From contig NZ_CP109131.1 of the NCBI RefSeq assembly GCF_035917995.1, positions 1,736,001 to 1,800,000 of the forward strand: a stretch of 64,000 bases of DNA, in the 5' to 3' direction. Below are positions 34,102 to 49,457 of this stretch, one piece after another; the first letter of the stretch is position 1; each line of letters starts with the position of its first letter. The position numbers and the translations under genes were made by a program. Below the pieces are notes generated by a model, which did not search any database, was not told the DNA's origin, and worked only from the letters and a program-made list of their open reading frames with translations. The stretch is from Streptosporangium sp. NBC_01755 (GTDB taxonomy: Bacteria; Actinomycetota; Actinomycetes; Streptosporangiales; Streptosporangiaceae).

Positions 34102-34309
34102 CGCCGGGAAGCACCCCGCCCTATTTCGAGATCCGGGGCAGCGTGGCGGTCATGAGGGAAACGACGGCGGTAGGCCGGCGGCCGAGCCCGGTCTGCCGCC
34201 GGCCGATTTCCTGGCTGTGCCGTCCCAGAGCCCGCACCCGCGCCACCAGTTCGGTGTAGTCGAACCGGCGGACCCGCGCCGTCCTGGCCGCCGGTGGTCA
34301 GAGGTGGGT

Positions 34310-34702
34310 TCACCCGCGTTTCTGCAGGGTGTAGAGGCGGATCTCGATGCCGTCGGGGTCGGTCACCCCGCTGATCAGCCATCCGATGCTGGCCTCGGCG
34401 ATTCCGGAGTGGGCCGCGCCGGCGGCGTCGAGGTGATCCGACCACTCCACCAGCGCGTCGTAGGTCGGTACGCCGAGCGCGACGGGGTCGAACCCCCGCA
34501 GCTCCCCTGCCAGCCTGGGCTCCTCGCGCAACGCCAGCATGAGGGTACCGTCCCGGTCGCGCAGTGCCACACCGCGCAGCACGCCCGCCTCGACGAACTC
34601 GATCGCCACCTCAAGGCCGAGCACCCGCCCGTACCACTCGATGCTCTTGCGCACGTCCGAGACCGGCAGTTTGACGTGATGGAATCCGCCCAGGGCCGTC
34701 AT
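34310..34702 (-). CDS. VOC superfamily protein
   Basis: 130 residues. FHHVKLPVSDVRKSIEWYGR and the matching second module ALGVPTYDALVEWSDHLDAA, ending DPDGIEIRLYTLQKR; His8 and the C-terminal Glu of IEIRLY match the metal ligands of metal-binding VOC enzymes. Divergent from the TetR gene across a 17-bp palindrome, so it is the probable regulated target: a small-molecule resistance or modification enzyme induced by its ligand. Confidence 0.82.
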   Translation of the reverse strand: MTALGGFHHVKLPVSDVRKSIEWYGRVLGLEVAIEFVEAGVLRGVALRDRDGTLMLALREEPRLAGELRGFDPVALGVPTYDALVEWSDHLDAAGAAHSGIAEASIGWLISGVTDPDGIEIRLYTLQKRG

Positions 34703-34752
34703 CGGTCACCCCTTCCCGGCCGGCGAGGGGCGTCGGCGCGGATCTGAAGTTA

Positions 34753-34769
34753 TTAAAGTTATACTTTAA
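34753..34769. promoter_or_regulatory. Palindromic TetR operator
   Basis: Inverted repeat TTAAAGT-TAT-ACTTTAA in the AT-rich gap between the divergent VOC (start 34702) and TetR (start 34787) genes. Its position supports control of both genes by the TetR protein. Confidence 0.7.
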
Positions 34770-34786
34770 AGTGTTACTATAGTTTG

Positions 34787-35413
34787 GTGTCAGACGTCAA
34801 CGGCCGGAACCGAAGATCCGCGCAGACCAGGCTCCGCATCGTCGAAGCCGCGCACCGGCTGTTCGTCACCCACGGCTACACCGGGACGACCTTCCAGGAG
34901 ATCGCCGACGCCGCCGGGGTGTCGGCCCCGACCGTCTACTTCCACTACGGCAACAAGGGCTGTCTCCTCAAGCACGTCGTCGACGTCGCCTCCATGGGTG
35001 ACGACGAGCCCGTCCCGCTTCTCGAACGGCCCCGGTTCGTCGCGCTGAAGGCCGCACCGGACCCGGCGACGGCCATCCGGCGGTGGGTTCACGAGTCCGG
35101 CGTCATCCTCGGCCGGGTCGCCCCCGTCCTGGCGGTGGTGCGCGACGCGGCGGCGAGCGATGCCGACATGGCCGCCCAGTGTGCCCAGAACAGCGAGGAG
35201 CGGCGCACCGCCCACAGCACGTTCGTCGCCGTCCTCGCCGGGCTGACCGCGCTGAGACCTGGACTGACCCGGCGCCGGGCCACCGACATCACCGTCGCCC
35301 TGCTCTCACCGGACCTGTTCCTCGTCATGACCCGCGAATGCGCGTGGACCACGAAGCACTGGGAGAGCTGGGTCACGGATCAGCTCGCCCACGCCCTGCT
35401 CCCGGATCCCTGA
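34787..35413 (+). CDS. TetR-family transcriptional regulator
   Basis: 208 residues from GTG 34787 (TTG 34784 also in frame). N-terminal HTH: RLRIVEAAHRLFVTHGYTGT, FQEIADAAGVSAPTVYFHYG, NKGCLLKHVVD. The ligand domain is Ala-rich and contains PDPATAIRRWVHESGVILGR. It most likely represses itself and the divergent VOC gene through the palindrome at 34753-34769. Confidence 0.9.
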   Translation: MSDVNGRNRRSAQTRLRIVEAAHRLFVTHGYTGTTFQEIADAAGVSAPTVYFHYGNKGCLLKHVVDVASMGDDEPVPLLERPRFVALKAAPDPATAIRRWVHESGVILGRVAPVLAVVRDAAASDADMAAQCAQNSEERRTAHSTFVAVLAGLTALRPGLTRRRATDITVALLSPDLFLVMTRECAWTTKHWESWVTDQLAHALLPDP

Positions 35414-35672
35414 CCTGCGGCATCTTCCAGACGCCGAGCCGCGGTCACCGGCCATCGTCCGCGGCGACGAACACCGAGGGGCTCCCTGACCCGTATATCC
35501 AAGACACTTCGAAAATTGAATCTTCGCAGACGCTAAGAACTCATCATCAAGACTTTCCATATTTCGGTGTATATCAGCTTTTATCAGCCTAATTCAGTAT
35601 TTGCCCATCTCGGGAGTGTGGCGGGAACGGGCTCGGGCATCATTCAAAAGGACTGGCAACCAGGATCCCTAG
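35414..35672. promoter_or_regulatory. Promoter region of the MNIO RiPP operon
   Basis: A 259-base gap with a clear drop in GC from about 35490 to 35610 (runs such as TATTTCGGTGTATATCAGCT), unlike the flanking genes. No gene fits. It probably carries the RiPP operon promoter; exact -35/-10 boxes cannot be assigned by eye. Confidence 0.45.
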
Positions 35673-36560
35673 ATGGCGACACACGCCGAATCTTGGGGGT
35701 GCACGGTGTTCGAACTGCGCGAGTTGGGCTCAGGCCTGGGTTACCGGACCGAGCTCGCAGACATGATCGACCAGCATGCCGACCGGATCGACTGGCTAGA
35801 AGTGATCACTGAGCACTTCCTGTTCGCCCCTACTGACAAGCGGGAACGGTTGCACGCGCTGGCCGCCCGATTCCCGATCGTGCCGCACGGGGTTGAAATG
35901 TCCATCGGCTCGGGCTGTGAAGTCGATGGAGACTACCTTGAGGCACTGGCGGCTCTGGTGGCCGAGATCGATGCGCCGTGGTTCAGCGACCATCTGTGTT
36001 TCACCCGGACGGATCAGGTCGCGCTGGGGGTGCTCGCGCCGCTGCCCCGCACCCGGGAGACGGCGCGCCTGCTGGGACGCAGGGCGCAGAAAGTGCAGGA
36101 CGCGGTGGGGGCACCGTTCCTGCTGGAGAACATCACCTACTACGTGAATCTGGCCGGCCCGCTCAGCGAGGCGCAGTTCATCGCCGAGGTGATGGAGAAC
36201 TGCGAGTGTCACCTGTTGCTGGACCTGACCAATCTCGACATCAACGCCCGCAATCACGATTTTGATCCGCTGGAGTTCCTCGACACCATCCCGGTGGAGC
36301 GGGTGGCGCAGGTGCACCTGGCGGGCGGTGAGGACGGGGACGATAGGGAGTTGTCCCTCGACACCCATGGTGAACCGGTACCACCCCGCGTGTGGGACCT
36401 GCTGGCCGAACTGGTGGGCCGCACCACCGTTCAGGCCACCCTGGTGGAACGCGACCGGAACTTCCCGGATGATCCGTACGAGCTGCTGGTGGAGATCGAC
36501 CAGGCCCGTACCCTCCTACGACGTTCGCCTGCCGGCCCGTCCATGACCGGGAGCACCTGA
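35673..36560 (+). CDS. DUF692 multinuclear non-heme iron-dependent oxidase (MNIO), RiPP maturase
   Basis: 295 residues from ATG 35673 (GTG 35706, closer to the usual family start and with GGGGG upstream, is possible). TIM-barrel DUF692 protein. Metal-site residues expected for the family are seen: PHG (His72), SDHLCF (Asp106, His107), LLENITYYV (Glu152, Asn153), LLLDLTNLDINARNHD (Asp184, Asn187), VHLAGG (His215), DTHGEPV (His232) and LVERD (Glu259). MNIOs (MbnB, TglH and relatives) oxidatively modify Cys or nearby residues of precursor peptides using a multi-iron site. It overlaps the partner gene and lies upstream of a Cys-rich precursor, so it is the core modifying enzyme of a RiPP pathway. 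Confidence 0.92.
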   Translation: MATHAESWGCTVFELRELGSGLGYRTELADMIDQHADRIDWLEVITEHFLFAPTDKRERLHALAARFPIVPHGVEMSIGSGCEVDGDYLEALAALVAEIDAPWFSDHLCFTRTDQVALGVLAPLPRTRETARLLGRRAQKVQDAVGAPFLLENITYYVNLAGPLSEAQFIAEVMENCECHLLLDLTNLDINARNHDFDPLEFLDTIPVERVAQVHLAGGEDGDDRELSLDTHGEPVPPRVWDLLAELVGRTTVQATLVERDRNFPDDPYELLVEIDQARTLLRRSPAGPSMTGST

Positions 36561-37474
36561 TGGGCCTACAGGAGGCCTTGGCCGCGGTGCTGACCTGCGA
36601 GGCCGAACTGGCGACGTTGCGTGAGGATCCCGCGCGGCTGCAGCACCGCTACGGGTTGAGCGATGCCGAGCTGGCCATGTTGGCCGGCGCTCCACCCGCG
36701 GGATTCCGTGTCACCGCTGAGAGCGTCCGCAGCAAGCTGGTGCAGAAGGTGACAGCCTGTCTGCCCGTCACCGTCGCCGAGCTGAAGGCCCATTACCCGG
36801 AGCTGTTGGAGGGGTTCGCCTCCGCCACCGTTCGCCGACCGCAACCGGGCGAGGGGTTGACGGGCTCCGGGGAGCCCGAGCGACTGGTGGCGTGGATCGA
36901 CGGCCGCGCGTCGGCGCCCTTGGTCGACTTCGCCCGCTACGAACTGCTGTGCGGACAGCTCGCACGTGACCGGCAGGCGACCCAGGCGGCCCAAGCGGCT
37001 CAGGCGACCCAGGCACCCCAAATGCCCCAGGCAGCCCATACGGCCCAAGCAGCCCAAGCAGCCCAAGTGGCCAGAAAACCGACCGCCGCCGTTCCGGATG
37101 ACCTCGAACCGGTCCTCGAACCGGTCCTCGCTCCGGACGGGGCCGTCGGTGAGGGCACACCGGCAGGTGGGGTGCTCAGCATCTCCCCCACCGTCCGGGT
37201 CGCGTTCTTCGATCACGACGTCACCGCCGAGGTGCCGCCCGCGCGACTACCCGCCCGGCACACGTCGATCCTGCTGCAACGCCAGTGGGGTGAGCCGGCC
37301 GTACGGGTCTACCGGATCAACGACGCCACCGCCGCCCTGCTGGACCACTGCGACGGCACCCGGAACGTCACGGAGGTGATCGCAGCGGTCGGCGTCGGTT
37401 CTGACCAGGTCACCGGCATGCTCACCAGGTTTGTCACCGAGGGCGTGGTCTGCGTCGCCGCTGACCGTTACTGA
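36560..37474 (+). CDS. MNIO partner protein with C-terminal PqqD-like recognition (RRE) domain
   Basis: 304 residues; start overlaps the MNIO stop by one base. The N-terminal 130 residues are helical (LQEALAAVLTCEAELATLRE, YPELLEGFASATVRR), comparable to the helper domains encoded beside MNIOs. A Gln/Ala linker made of 9-base repeats (residues about 139-170, TQAAQAAQATQAPQ) follows. The last 80 residues, VRVYRINDATAALLDHCDGT and NVTEVIAAVGVGSDQVTGML, are the winged-helix PqqD/RRE pattern that binds RiPP leader peptides. I infer that it presents the precursor at 37627 to the MNIO. Confidence 0.85.
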   Translation: MGLQEALAAVLTCEAELATLREDPARLQHRYGLSDAELAMLAGAPPAGFRVTAESVRSKLVQKVTACLPVTVAELKAHYPELLEGFASATVRRPQPGEGLTGSGEPERLVAWIDGRASAPLVDFARYELLCGQLARDRQATQAAQAAQATQAPQMPQAAHTAQAAQAAQVARKPTAAVPDDLEPVLEPVLAPDGAVGEGTPAGGVLSISPTVRVAFFDHDVTAEVPPARLPARHTSILLQRQWGEPAVRVYRINDATAALLDHCDGTRNVTEVIAAVGVGSDQVTGMLTRFVTEGVVCVAADRY

Positions 37475-37626
37475 GGGAAGGCCCGGCCACGACTCCCCGA
37501 GGGCCATCCCCATCAGGCTCCGCGCCGACCTCACAGAGGTCACCTGAAACAGCGCGGAAATCGACCCGGCGACGGGTCGGCGATCTGTGACCTGCCCACG
37601 GCGGGACACACTTTGAAAGGAAGCCC

Positions 37627-37767
37627 ATGAGCACAAACACACCGGTCGATACCACCACCGATCAAACGACCTCGCCAACGTTCGTGTTCGAGCCCATCGT
37701 CGATCTCACCTCCGCCCAGGCACCAGACCACTGCGGTGGGAGCACCTGTAGTCGATGCGGTCATTAG
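37627..37767 (+). CDS. RiPP precursor peptide, Cys-rich C-terminus
   Basis: 46 residues, ATG preceded by AAAGGAAG (37615-37623), 152 bases after the partner gene. The leader is Thr/Asp-rich (MSTNTPVDTTTDQTTSPTF) with a hydrophobic patch FVFEPIVDLTSAQAP that could be the RRE-binding segment. The C-terminus DHCGGSTCSRCGH holds all three Cys (positions 36, 41, 44) and a terminal His, the expected substrate of an MNIO. A strong terminator follows 23 bases after the stop. Too short for routine gene calling, but position, ribosome binding site and composition make it the precursor with good confidence. Confidence 0.88.
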   Translation: MSTNTPVDTTTDQTTSPTFVFEPIVDLTSAQAPDHCGGSTCSRCGH

Positions 37768-37790
37768 CCAGAGTCACGGCAACAGCTAGA

Positions 37791-37823
37791 AGAGGAGTGG
37801 GGCTTCGACAACCCCACTCCTTT
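37791..37823 (+). terminator. Terminator of the RiPP operon
   Basis: Stem AGGAGTGGGG (37793-37802) with CCCCACTCCT (37812-37821), extendable by a G-T and an A-T pair, 9-base loop, then TTTC. Located 23 bases after the precursor stop. Confidence 0.85.
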
Positions 37824-37866
37824 CACCCGCCATCCCCGATCACCACATGATTGATGACCTAACGGG

Positions 37867-37989
37867 ATGTACCTAATGGGATGTCAGGTGAAGACGGGAG
37901 ACGTGTTCCACGAGGACGGCCGCCCCTTCGTCGTGGAAATGTGCTTCCACTACCACCGGGGTTTCCACCCCTGCGGTCGCTACCTGTGA
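37867..37989 (+). CDS. Small Cys/His-rich ORF downstream of RiPP operon
   Basis: 40 residues: MYLMGCQVKTGDVFHEDGRP then FVVEMCFHYHRGFHPCGRYL. It contains three Cys and four His, an unusual density for a chance frame. Possible starts are ATG 37867, ATG 37876 and GTG 37888; GGGATGT is duplicated around the first two and no strong ribosome binding site is visible. It lies past the RiPP terminator. It may be a second peptide or metal-binding partner of the locus, or an independent small protein; expression is unproven. Confidence 0.45.
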   Translation: MYLMGCQVKTGDVFHEDGRPFVVEMCFHYHRGFHPCGRYL

Positions 37990-38036
37990 CCTGCTCCCGG
38001 AACCCTGGAGAGGGCTCCGGGGTATCCGGCATCTCC

Positions 38037-38345
38037 TCAGTCCACCTGCTCCGGTGCGAAGTGTTCACGTAGCAGGGCGATCTTCCCGTCGCGAAGGCGG
38101 AAGATCTGTACCAGCGACATGGTCGTCGCTCCTCCTGGCACGTCGAAGGCGGTATCGATCTCGGCGATGAACACATCCGGGTCAGCGGTGGTGTGCAGCA
38201 CGTACCGGTACCTGTCCGCGTTCACCTTGCGGTCGCTATCCACCGATCGCGCATAGTACGCGGCCATTCCATCGCGTATCTTCTCGCGCCCCTCCAGGCG
38301 CCTCGGAAAGACGCGGCCGGGCGCCGAGGGCTCCGCCCCCGGACC
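38037..38345 (-). pseudogene. SnoaL-like domain protein, 5'-truncated
   Basis: The C-terminal half of a SnoaL/ketosteroid-isomerase-fold protein is intact: RRLEGREKIRDGMAAYYARS, VLHTTADPDVFIAEIDTAFD, TMSLVQIFRLRDGKIALLRE. The expected N-terminal helices and the catalytic-Asp strand (e.g. FAEDAVxxFPF) are missing; upstream sequence in this frame is Pro/Gly/Ser low complexity and does not match the fold. I read it as a truncated remnant. The ribosome-binding and start region is absent. Confidence 0.6.
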
Positions 38346-38680
38346 GGCGGCGGCCCAGCGCGATCTCGTACCACGATCATCGACATCACCACTCGGCCTC
38401 AGGCCGAGCCCCCCCTGGACAAGCAGTCCGTACCGGTGCCCGGCGCCGCCCGTGTCAAGCGAGTGCCCATGGCCTTTTCGCTCTTTCGGAAAAGTCGACA
38501 GGTTCCCAAAAATAATCGGAACAAACAAATCCGGAGGTTAAATTGGCTTTGCCGGAGTCTGCCGCAAGAACAAGAAAGCAAGCAATTAGATCCTTTGCGC
38601 CAAAGGATTCGCCTTATATCGTGCCTGTTGCCCATGGCCGCCAAGTGATCCATGCTCGCGGCCATTCAGAGGAGGAACCC

Positions 38681-39022
38681 ATGTACGGCAAGCGACAACT
38701 TATGGTGCTCGGTCCGGCGCTTCTTGCGGCCCTGACCCTCGGACCGGCCTCGATCTCGCACGCCTCGGCCACGCCGGATCCCACACCGCCGGCGGCAAGC
38801 GCTCAACAGAGCAAGCCAACGACGGACCTGGCCCCACCGGCCAGGGACCCGAGAGGGGGGTACTGGAACGGCTACCGAGACGGCTACCGAGCCGCCGGAC
38901 AGGACTGTTCTAGGCCGAGGGCCAAAGCGGGCGAGTTGCCCGGCCTCGCACTGAGAATCAGCGACTACGACAGGGGCTGGCTGGACGGCTACGACGACGG
39001 CCACGACAGGTTCTGTAGATAA
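38681..39022 (+). CDS. Small secreted protein
   Basis: 113 residues from ATG 38681, with GAGGAGGAACCC directly upstream (an in-frame start at 38543 lacks this). Signal peptide MYGKRQLMVLGPALLAALTL with Ala-rich cleavage region near residue 29 (SHASA). Mature part has Gly/Tyr/Asp repeats: GGYWNGYRDGYRAAGQD and DRGWLDGYDDGHDRFCR. The WxxGYxDGYxxG pattern is found in actinobacterial exported proteins of unknown role. Two Cys could form one disulfide. A large hairpin follows. Confidence 0.75.
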   Translation: MYGKRQLMVLGPALLAALTLGPASISHASATPDPTPPAASAQQSKPTTDLAPPARDPRGGYWNGYRDGYRAAGQDCSRPRAKAGELPGLALRISDYDRGWLDGYDDGHDRFCR

Positions 39023-39096
39023 ACAGGAACCAAACACACTGAGGTAATCAAGGCGTTCGGCACGTCTCATCGGCCGGACCGGCCGTGAACGAAGAA

Positions 39097-47713: not shown

Positions 47714-49457
47714 CCTGGATCCACGGCGTGAATTCTGGTGATCATTCTTCGGTTCGATTCCTTCACCAGGACCGTTTTGCCTGACGGGGGTCTGATTTGG
47801 GGTGTGGAGAACCCGCCGTGCGCGGGTCACGGATTGTCCAGGCGTTCACGGGCTCGGGGGCGGGGTTCGTGCGCGAGGGCGCGGGTGACCGTGGAGGTCG
47901 AGGGAAGAGTGGTGGCAGGGCGGGGACGGGTCAAGCCGCGCGGATCGGTGGCAGCCGGTGGACGGCTTGGAAGAGGTTCATCCATGCGTGCCGCCAGTGC
48001 CAATACCGGGGAAGATGCAGGGTGAGGTGGCCCCGGCCGTGCCGGGCGATGCGGGCGGGCACGCCGATGAGATGGCGGCGCAGGGTGGCGCCGCGCGCCT
48101 TGGCGTGAAAGGTTCCGGCCAGGCAGCCGGCCGCGCGCAGCAGGTTGTGGCAGATCGCCGCCAAGGTCAGCCAGGCGGCGTTGGCGGTGAACACGCCCGA
48201 GGGCAGGTGCGCTAATGGTCCGTCGATCAAGTCCGCGTTGACCTGCTCGATGACCGCGTGATCACGGTGTTGTTCCTCGGCCTGCCCGAGGGCGTACGGA
48301 CTGTCGGTGAAGATCGCGTGATAGCGGTAGAGCGGGAACGGTTCCTCTGGCCGGAGCCCGGTCTGCGAGTTGAGCCGTTTGACCCGGCGCACGATCAGCC
48401 GGGCGGTGATGGCCTGGCCCTTCTTCGCGGCGAACGCCGTGTAGGCGACCTCCGCGATCTCGGCGTCGGAGATCCAGCCCCCTGCTTGTTCGTCGAAGAT
48501 GGCGTTGGGGTATTTGATCGCTGTCCAGGCGGTTTCGTCGATCGCCGCGATCGCGGCTTTGATCTTGGGGTCCATTTTGGCGGTGACGGAGAAGCGCACG
48601 TCGTTCGTGTGGCAGGCGTTGATCACGCCTGCGGTGTAGAACGCCGAGTCCCCGCGCATCATCAGGGTGGCGCTCGCGCCCGCTGATCGTGCCGCGCCGA
48701 TCGACTCACGCACGAACCAGGCCGCGCCGCGGGCGGAGTTCGCGCTTCCGCCGCGCAGCCGGGTGCCGGTCACCACCGGGGCGGCCAGCGGTGTGGACAG
48801 TGTGGAGGCCAGCACGTTCAGTCCGCGCACCAGCACGCCCTTGCCGCCGATCTTGGTGTGGCCGAACCCCGATCCTTGCTTCTTGTAGCCGTAGGTACGT
48901 CGCTGCATCGAGTCCACATCGAGGAAGGCGAGCACGTCCGCGCCGGGCGGCAACGGCGTATGGGCGGCCGGCCGGGCCGGCAGCAGGCGGGCCACTTTCT
49001 CGATCTGCCGGACGTTGCCCCAGGCCAGGCACCGCAGGAACGATCCCAGCGTGGACGGTGCGCGGATACCGGTAAACAACGTGTCCATGCCGCCGTGGCG
49101 CAGTGCGTCCAGATCATCGATGCTGTCGGCCCCGCAGGCCATCCCGGCTACGATCGAGCCGATCTTCGCCGCCGGGTTCACGCCGTCCCGGCCGGTGGGA
49201 GTGACGTGCTCGCCCGCCAGGTCGCTCAGGCCGCACCGCTCGGCCAACCGCATCACCGGCCCCAGCCCGCCGTACGCGACTACACGCTCCTCATCGAAGA
49301 TCGCATGGGTCTTGGCAGAGTCGTGGAACAATTGCACTTGAGAGGTGTCCTCTCGATCAAGGTGGCGGAAGCCTGAAGAACTCCCATCATCCCAGGTCGG
49401 AGGGCACCTCCTCTCATTTCAGGATCTTCAGTTCAGAATCGGCTCGGTGGATCCAGG
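47714..49457 (-). mobile_element. Complete IS1380-family insertion sequence
   Basis: 1744 bases. Terminal inverted repeats begin CCTGGATCCAC on both ends (the left end reads CCTGGATCCACGGCGTGAAT, the right end inverted CCTGGATCCACCGAGCCGAT, followed by ATTCTG). It is flanked by the 5-bp direct duplication CTCAG (47709-47713 and 49458-49462). It carries one transposase gene and interrupts the DUF559 gene without any loss of target sequence, so the insertion appears recent and the IS probably mobile. Confidence 0.9.
47931..49337 (-). CDS. IS1380-family transposase
   Basis: 468 residues. DDE domain: FLDVDSMQRRTYG (first Asp), LMMRGDSAFYTAGVI (second Asp), HAVIEQVNADLIDGPLAHLP (Glu) and the C-terminal NAAWLTLAAICHNLLRAAG. 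The N-terminal region GLGPVMRLAERCGLSDLAGE is typical of actinobacterial IS1380 members. Full length, no frameshift. Catalyses movement of the element at 47714-49457. Confidence 0.92.
   Translation of the reverse strand: MQLFHDSAKTHAIFDEERVVAYGGLGPVMRLAERCGLSDLAGEHVTPTGRDGVNPAAKIGSIVAGMACGADSIDDLDALRHGGMDTLFTGIRAPSTLGSFLRCLAWGNVRQIEKVARLLPARPAAHTPLPPGADVLAFLDVDSMQRRTYGYKKQGSGFGHTKIGGKGVLVRGLNVLASTLSTPLAAPVVTGTRLRGGSANSARGAAWFVRESIGAARSAGASATLMMRGDSAFYTAGVINACHTNDVRFSVTAKMDPKIKAAIAAIDETAWTAIKYPNAIFDEQAGGWISDAEIAEVAYTAFAAKKGQAITARLIVRRVKRLNSQTGLRPEEPFPLYRYHAIFTDSPYALGQAEEQHRDHAVIEQVNADLIDGPLAHLPSGVFTANAAWLTLAAICHNLLRAAGCLAGTFHAKARGATLRRHLIGVPARIARHGRGHLTLHLPRYWHWRHAWMNLFQAVHRLPPIRAA

Follow-up and report, generated by a model that had tools for sequence, protein, structure and literature searches.

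A three-gene cassette of Streptosporangium with a DUF692 enzyme and a cysteine-tipped precursor: a probable cysteine-modifying peptide pathway

What does a DUF692 enzyme act on when its close company is one partner gene and a short open reading frame (ORF)? The question is raised by positions 35673 to 37823 of a 64,000-nucleotide stretch, hereafter the window, from the genome of the soil actinomycete Streptosporangium sp. NBC_01755 (contig NZ_CP109131.1, positions 1,736,001 to 1,800,000). DUF692 (PF05114) denotes the multinuclear non-haem iron oxidative enzymes (MNIOs), and a sequence-only reading of the window had proposed here a compact locus for a ribosomally synthesized and post-translationally modified peptide (RiPP) with a cysteine-tipped precursor, a proposal that the co-conservation of precursor and MNIO upholds. 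As far as sequence comparison can establish it, an MNIO with iron-site residues, an overlapping gene for a partner that is DUF2063-like and resembles a RiPP recognition element (RRE) at its C-terminus, and a short precursor of leader-core layout form a conserved set; the cassette is probably a three-gene RiPP system that modifies cysteine. The host genome is a single contig of 8.15 Mb with one PF05114 match and one copy of the precursor. The MNIO, its partner and the 46-residue ORF with its ribosome binding site all lie where they had been placed, the start of the partner gene sharing one base with the MNIO stop. The features are as follows.

35673..36560, +, MNIO, 295 residues (Pfam E 4e-81; iron-site-type residues)
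36560..37474, +, MNIO partner, 304 residues, N-terminally DUF2063-like and C-terminally RRE-like (about residues 200-304), as judged by profile comparison
36974..37067, +, Gln/Ala-rich linker of the partner, encoded by tandem repeats, not conserved
37475..37626, +, spacer between partner and precursor, 152 bases, conserved with Streptosporangium amethystogenes
37616..37623, +, ribosome binding site of the precursor, AAAGGAAG
37627..37767, +, precursor peptide ORF, 46 residues
37681..37695, +, leader motif FVFEP (family form F-x-[FL]-E), proposed RRE recognition sequence
37732..37764, +, proposed core CGGSTCSRCGH
37791..37823, +, 12-bp hairpin, probable terminator by folding, with a counterpart in S. 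amethystogenes

Co-conservation of the precursor with the enzyme and its partner

The distribution of the three genes was followed in 341 genomes of the same family, the window genome included; we take this family to be the Streptosporangiaceae of GTDB, with Actinomadura among its members. MNIO matches of any kind occur in 172 of these genomes, and MNIOs at least 67% identical to that of the window are found at 11 loci in ten genomes (the window's own included), the next best being 56% identical. Partner matches at E <=0.001 are present in 15 genomes, ten with a best E of 3.4e-31 or lower and five at 1.3e-5 to 8e-4, and the ten strong ones are the same ten genomes that hold the MNIO clade. A precursor profile of eight rows matches at E <=3.7e-11 in nine genomes, all among those ten; the next match has E 0.0105, and at a loose limit of 0.1 the count rises to 18. 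Co-conservation of the short ORF with the MNIO, the point on which the proposal had been staked in advance, was thus found in nine of the 341 genomes. One of the nine, from Actinomadura harenae, was not a profile row; this precursor sits at the edge of contig C17, 97 bases short of its end, and the partner gene is truncated by the edge of contig C56. We infer that the two contigs adjoin. In the tenth genome, Actinomadura fibrosa, the 3,020-base contig ends within the partner gene. Of the ten cassettes, eight are therefore contiguous, that of A. harenae is split between contigs and that of A. fibrosa is truncated. The precursor follows the partner directly in seven of the eight contiguous loci; in Microtetraspora one glycosyltransferase gene stands between them. 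In a class sample of 394 genomes the partner has, besides the window's own match, five weak ones (E 4e-4 to 9e-4), and in a phylum sample of 396 genomes the best MNIO besides that of the window is 43% identical. No plasmid MNIO reaches 60% identity (all 355 matching records lie below it), and no partner relative was found among 62 pattern matches on viral contigs.

The window precursor is MSTNTPVDTTTDQTTSPTFVFEPIVDLTSAQAPDHCGGSTCSRCGH, with DHCGGSTCSRCGH at its C-terminus. The core had been described as CxGGxxxCxxC; its actual spacing is C-x4-C-x2-C (CGGSTCSRC), with the cysteines at residues 36, 41 and 44, and the Phe and Glu of the leader motif are F19 and E22. The other precursors end in CGGNTCSRCGH, HCLNCQACW, CCSGGRCGRDDPDG, GCSSCACSR, GCGACTCGCS, NCSAHGGCFGCL, GCQCY and NCSSCSCSR, so that all nine carry two to four cysteines near the C-terminus and the last residue may be H, W, G, R, S, L or Y, and is never Cys. 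In the profile alignment, in which the L039 row (locus labels are our own) includes 18 residues 5' of its ATG, a leader Phe, a leader Glu and one Cys are invariant in all eight precursors and the tips vary; no Asp, Asn or aromatic residue of the core is invariant. The leader Phe and Glu also occur in the A. harenae precursor, which stands outside that alignment. Hydropathy, measured in eight precursors without a dedicated predictor, reveals no stretch resembling a signal peptide; the window precursor has a highest 15-residue value of 0.77 and no Pfam match, including to DUF2282. The leader motif F-x-[FL]-E resembles FxLD, the lanthipeptide motif recognized by an RRE (PMC12710340). No published description of this precursor family, its leader motif or its position after the partner was found in a search that had the supplementary alignments of PMC12452194 outside its range.

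Comparison with S. amethystogenes gives evidence that the ORF is a gene. Its frame, ribosome binding site and stop are kept, the sole indel is of 12 bases and in frame, and the codons show five silent and six residue-changing differences. Over the last 27 codons the nonsynonymous and synonymous rates (dN and dS) are 0.05 and 0.24, comparable with 0.053 and 0.243 for the MNIO. A purine-rich stretch also lies 5' of the other precursors (A. harenae row excluded). ORFs with the motif and a Cys tip number 14 in 422 kb, and 13 of these were counted as MNIO neighbours. L014 is among the 13 only through the width of the interval set, with about 6.4 kb between its ORF and its MNIO; the pattern was defined after the sequences had been seen, and most of the 422 kb had been chosen for MNIO or partner content. 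Judged by these comparisons, the precursor ORF is more than a chance one.

The DNA that aligns with S. amethystogenes comprises 35481-36991 and 37118-37821, the second piece stopping at the hairpin; other pieces of the neighbourhood (34264-34754, 38503-39037 and from 39740 on) align too, as expected for a close species. The spacer (37478-37626) and its S. amethystogenes counterpart both fold better than shuffled sequences (z -2.9 and -3.1), with predicted folds that differ in part, and it is possible on this folding model that the spacer is an RNA element setting the dosage of the precursor. The terminator claimed after the ORF stands in so far as there is a hairpin (12 pairs; 59 folded bases, -22.6 kcal/mol, z -3.5); a scan requiring a T-run gave no terminator at the hairpin, and the lack of this run makes a terminator probable rather than certain. 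Two further candidates for membership of the locus were considered. The TetR gene at 34784-35413 was rejected as an operon member, only 76 of its bases aligning with S. amethystogenes. The ORF at 37867-37989, 3' of the hairpin, encodes 40 residues with three cysteines and an FVVE stretch; it falls in the gap (37821 to 38503) between two segments alignable with S. amethystogenes and is unsupported as a second precursor. No Rfam family was found inside the cassette locus at gathering threshold; elsewhere in the window, Rfam places the actinobacterial small RNA Ms_IGR-7 at 49340-49456 (+; 55.2 bits, cut-off 45).

The MNIO and its partner protein

The enzyme matches PF05114 with 272.6 bits against a cut-off of 25. 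Its subfamily scores (cut-offs in brackets) are BufB 240 (310), HvfB 218 (360), ApyH 113 (400), ChrH 65 (600) and MbnB 45.9 (325); two plasmid bufferin-type MNIOs reach 372.6 and 378.9 with the BufB profile. Alignment with 3BWW and HvfB places the iron-site-type residues at H72, H107, E152, N187, H215, D230, H232 and E259. We take H72, H107, E152, H215 and E259 to be metal-site residues on general grounds, and the roles of N187, D230 and H232 rest on HvfB: N187 aligns with N175 of 3BWW, and D230 and H232 with D241 and H243, the three corresponding to N175, D242 and H244 of HvfB. Alanine variants of HvfB at these three positions are inactive (PMC13419390).

Trees and alignments were made with 35-36 selected MNIOs, out of the 172 genomes with any match (L073 was omitted, being the same locus as L092). 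In the tree of 36 the 11 clade members group together (100/100); the long-branched orphan MNIO G346, of 56% identity, is placed within this group, and five bufferin-type references with six unclassified actinomycete rows occupy a separate part. Among the 35 aligned MNIOs, all eight iron-site residues are intact in ten of the 11 clade members, namely those with an adjoining partner gene (cut by a contig end in A. fibrosa and A. harenae). The eleventh, C344 of Nonomuraea antri, has H72F, H107R and N187G, and G346 has N187A and H232R; no partner or precursor was found beside either. Loss of predicted iron-site residues in such MNIOs is the pattern expected of an enzyme that is retained solely in the company of partner and substrate. 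In N. antri, which also keeps a cassette, the orphan MNIO with changed iron-site residues lies at L087:8268-9089, and an orphan partner gene without an MNIO at L035:1925-2704. Residue 75 (window 35895-35897), three residues past the iron-site position H72, is Glu in ten of the 11 clade rows (Gln in C344) and also in G346 and L014; it is Gly, Ser or Arg in the remaining 22 of the 35.

The sequence-only reading had given the partner a PqqD-like RRE and a Gln/Ala linker. The linker is present, and it is absent from the S. amethystogenes partner (77% identical), the closest relative, for which reason it may be a recent repeat expansion; the PqqD match of the C-terminus is weak (E 0.096; 13.5 bits, cut-off 23.4). 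The same region resembles two RiPP-binding families, ApyI (E 0.001) and HvfC (E 0.0026), in each case far under the cut-off, and a partner from the related set (L090) scores 23.5 bits with the PqqD profile. The partner has no Pfam match to the DUF2063 signature. By hhalign it matches a profile of six more distant actinomycete MNIO partners at 99.7% over its full length, and five DUF2063 bufferin-type partners weakly (48.7%, E 1.8e-4). No PDB relative was found at E <=1 with the single protein, and the best profile match (E 0.054) is a ribosomal protein, so that no convincing relative emerged there.

A DUF2063 or DUF2063-like domain joined to an RRE domain is the usual layout of MNIO partners (PMC12452194). 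The fusion of helper and RRE had been offered as a distinguishing trait, and the novelty of the architecture falls away, since the partner matches other actinomycete partners end to end and the type is already described. The window partner follows the MNIO gene and lacks the DUF2063 signature, and on these sequence traits would fit 'PME-type 2' of PMC12452194, a type with a DUF2063/TglI-like fold; partners of that type are associated with precursors without a signal peptide (PMC12452194), so that its pairing here with a leader-type precursor is as expected.

Proposed chemistry and alternative readings

We propose that the RRE-like C-terminus of the partner would bind the leader through F-x-[FL]-E, and that the MNIO, activated by the partner, would use O2 to oxidize at least one of the C-terminal cysteines. 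By analogy with HvfBC, this may involve a mixed-valent diiron site that requires the partner (PMC13419390). The cysteine product is quite possibly a thiooxazole (5-thiooxazole) or a group of the oxazolone/thioamide type, an assignment offered tentatively. A general protease would remove the leader, and the modified cysteine cluster would most likely bind a soft metal such as copper. That cysteine is the substrate is in keeping with HvfB (PMC13419390) and the bufferin MNIOs (PMC12452194), both of which act on it; for bufferins, PMC12452194 describes a loss of mass for each Cys and an absorbance near 305 nm.

Several observations weigh against a cysteine-modifying system. The chemistry and the metal binding are inferred from sequence. 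The kind of modification is not readable from homology to the MNIO, which lies below the BufB equivalog cut-off (240 versus 310), and the PqqD match of the partner is sub-threshold. The lack of a recurrent exporter or protease leaves a secreted product unexplained. In N. antri the precursor carries just two cysteines (GCQCY). Over the whole precursor ORF dN is 0.088 and dS 0.192, a ratio of about 0.46 from few sites. Finally, eight of the nine precursor matches were themselves profile rows and scoring was limited to no more than 21 candidates in each genome, so that absences of the precursor are no proof.

The alternatives divide according to what they make of the ORF. A genuine MNIO RiPP in which another residue is modified, as in aminopyruvatide, biphenomycin-like peptides, nitrilobacillin and std, the cysteines serving otherwise, has precedent in MNIOs that modify Asp, Asn, Phe and homocitrulline (PMC13174530, PMC13060819, PMC12257519); it is made improbable by the invariance in eight precursors of leader Phe, leader Glu and one Cys alone, with no such core Asp, Asn or aromatic, and by the association of that chemistry with larger and more diverse clusters (PMC12452194). 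That the peptide is instead a scaffold in a pearlin-like route, with the MNIO acting on a C-terminal Cys, is most improbable: pearlin clusters likewise use a PME-type 2 partner (PMC12452194), yet the last residue here varies and is never Cys, and no added gene recurs nearby.

The small ORF might also be a regulator or stabilizer, the substrate being encoded elsewhere, and its distance of 152 bases behind a strongly folding spacer would suit this, as would the possibility that some MNIOs modify proteins (PMC12452194). Co-occurrence, the leader-core layout with its variable tip, and the recurrent position after the partner gene speak the other way, and we regard the idea as very improbable. Scarcely credible is a chance ORF at a decaying MNIO locus. 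The locus is patchy (ten of 341 genomes) and orphan copies exist; against this, frame and ribosome binding site are conserved, the iron-site residues are intact in the ten clade MNIOs with an adjoining partner gene, and co-occurrence largely refutes the notion. The cysteine-modifying reading thus remains the one we prefer. It is doubtful, by contrast with that reading, whether the F-x-[FL]-E, Cys-tip peptides form a separate RiPP class, marked by a single RRE-MNIO pair at each locus, a Cys tip that changes fast, a near-clade-specific E75 MNIO, a cysteine-derived group unlike those of bufferins, oxazolins and methanobactins, and a Microtetraspora member that is also glycosylated by a glycosyltransferase with a PqqD-like stretch of its own.

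What is already known comprises MNIO RiPPs, the partner type and the many unassigned groups of the mining papers; a new product is possible. In the MNIO landscape paper the main precursor collection consists of ORFs preceding the MNIO gene (PMC12452194), and a precursor placed last could therefore be overlooked, although for small MNIO clusters every RODEO ORF was considered (PMC12452194). The cassette represents a minimal MNIO system, of three genes and a 46-residue substrate, with a natural series of nine cores on one leader type. Such a series would make it testable which cysteine an MNIO oxidizes and what decides this, and the cassette would do the same for recognition by an RRE partner of a leader that is no signal peptide.

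Neighbouring genes and known MNIO systems

Seven loci (the window, L011, L012, L013, L037, L039 and L040) were compared with the cassette masked. None of their 649 ORFs of at least 60 residues matches two or more other loci at E 1e-10; 29 match one other locus, linking the window with L011 (close species), L037 with L039 (both Actinomadura) and L011 with L037. Genes for a protease, an exporter or a further modifier do not recur next to the cassette in these loci, which bears out the earlier remark that none is adjacent. In Microtetraspora sp. NBRC 13810 the gene between partner and precursor encodes a GT4-type glycosyltransferase (L012:9887-11692) whose C-terminus is PqqD-like below threshold (16.5 bits versus 23.4); its place suggests that this locus makes a glycosylated relative of the window peptide. 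A second Microtetraspora MNIO, beside nitroreductase and ABC transporter genes, has about 6.4 kb upstream of it a candidate precursor (L014:5834-5947), a 37-residue ORF with a GTG start, FDLE and CQGCGG. The distant loci L041 (10849-11283 and 11124-11255) and L042 (2738-3766 and 3864-4031) have two candidate precursors each, with the leader EFELEQL; their cores include CSGCGSCSGCAHSGCSGCAH and CAGCSSCKA. The L042 glycosyltransferase matches PqqD above cut-off (25.0).

Among characterized systems, the bufferins (BufABC: DUF2282 precursor, MNIO BufB and DUF2063 partner BufC) share a compact operon of MNIO and RRE-bearing partner, a Cys-rich substrate and the best subfamily score of the window MNIO (BufB). 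Unlike the two plasmid MNIOs, however, this enzyme does not reach the BufB cut-off, and the five bufferin-type references lie elsewhere in the tree; the window precursor is placed last and has neither a signal-peptide-like stretch nor DUF2282, and its partner lacks the DUF2063 signature that both scanned plasmid partners have. The HvfABC oxazolin system of Haemophilus likewise pairs an MNIO with an RRE partner acting on Cys and shares the three residues aligned with N187, D230 and H232, whereas HvfA is made with a secretion signal and contains EGKCG motifs (PMC13419390) and the window MNIO falls well below the HvfB cut-off (218 versus 360). With the methanobactins (MbnABC) the window has in common an MNIO plus partner, but the MbnB score is far under cut-off and the partner has no MbnC match. 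Aminopyruvatide (ApyHI) and other PME-type 2 systems also use a precursor without a signal peptide, and the partner C-terminus resembles ApyI; the ApyH score (113 versus 400), the Cys-rich core and the absence of a further recurrent modifier set the window apart. Pearlin, which we take to be made by TglHI from a C-terminal Cys supplied by a Cys-adding enzyme of the cluster, differs in that the window precursor ends in His and no additional gene recurs nearby.

The larger actinomycete MNIO clusters L041, L042, L014 and L089 have partners homologous end to end to that of the window, and the precursors of L041 and L042 also have an F-x-L-E leader with CSGC-type or CAGC-type cores. Their MNIOs are only 46-50% identical to that of the window, and they carry further genes: L041 and L042 both contain glycosyltransferase and ABC transporter genes, L042 (and by eye L041) an asparagine-synthase-like gene, and L014 and L089 a nitroreductase gene. 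Set beside all of these, the cassette appears to be a new offshoot of an established type of peptide pathway.

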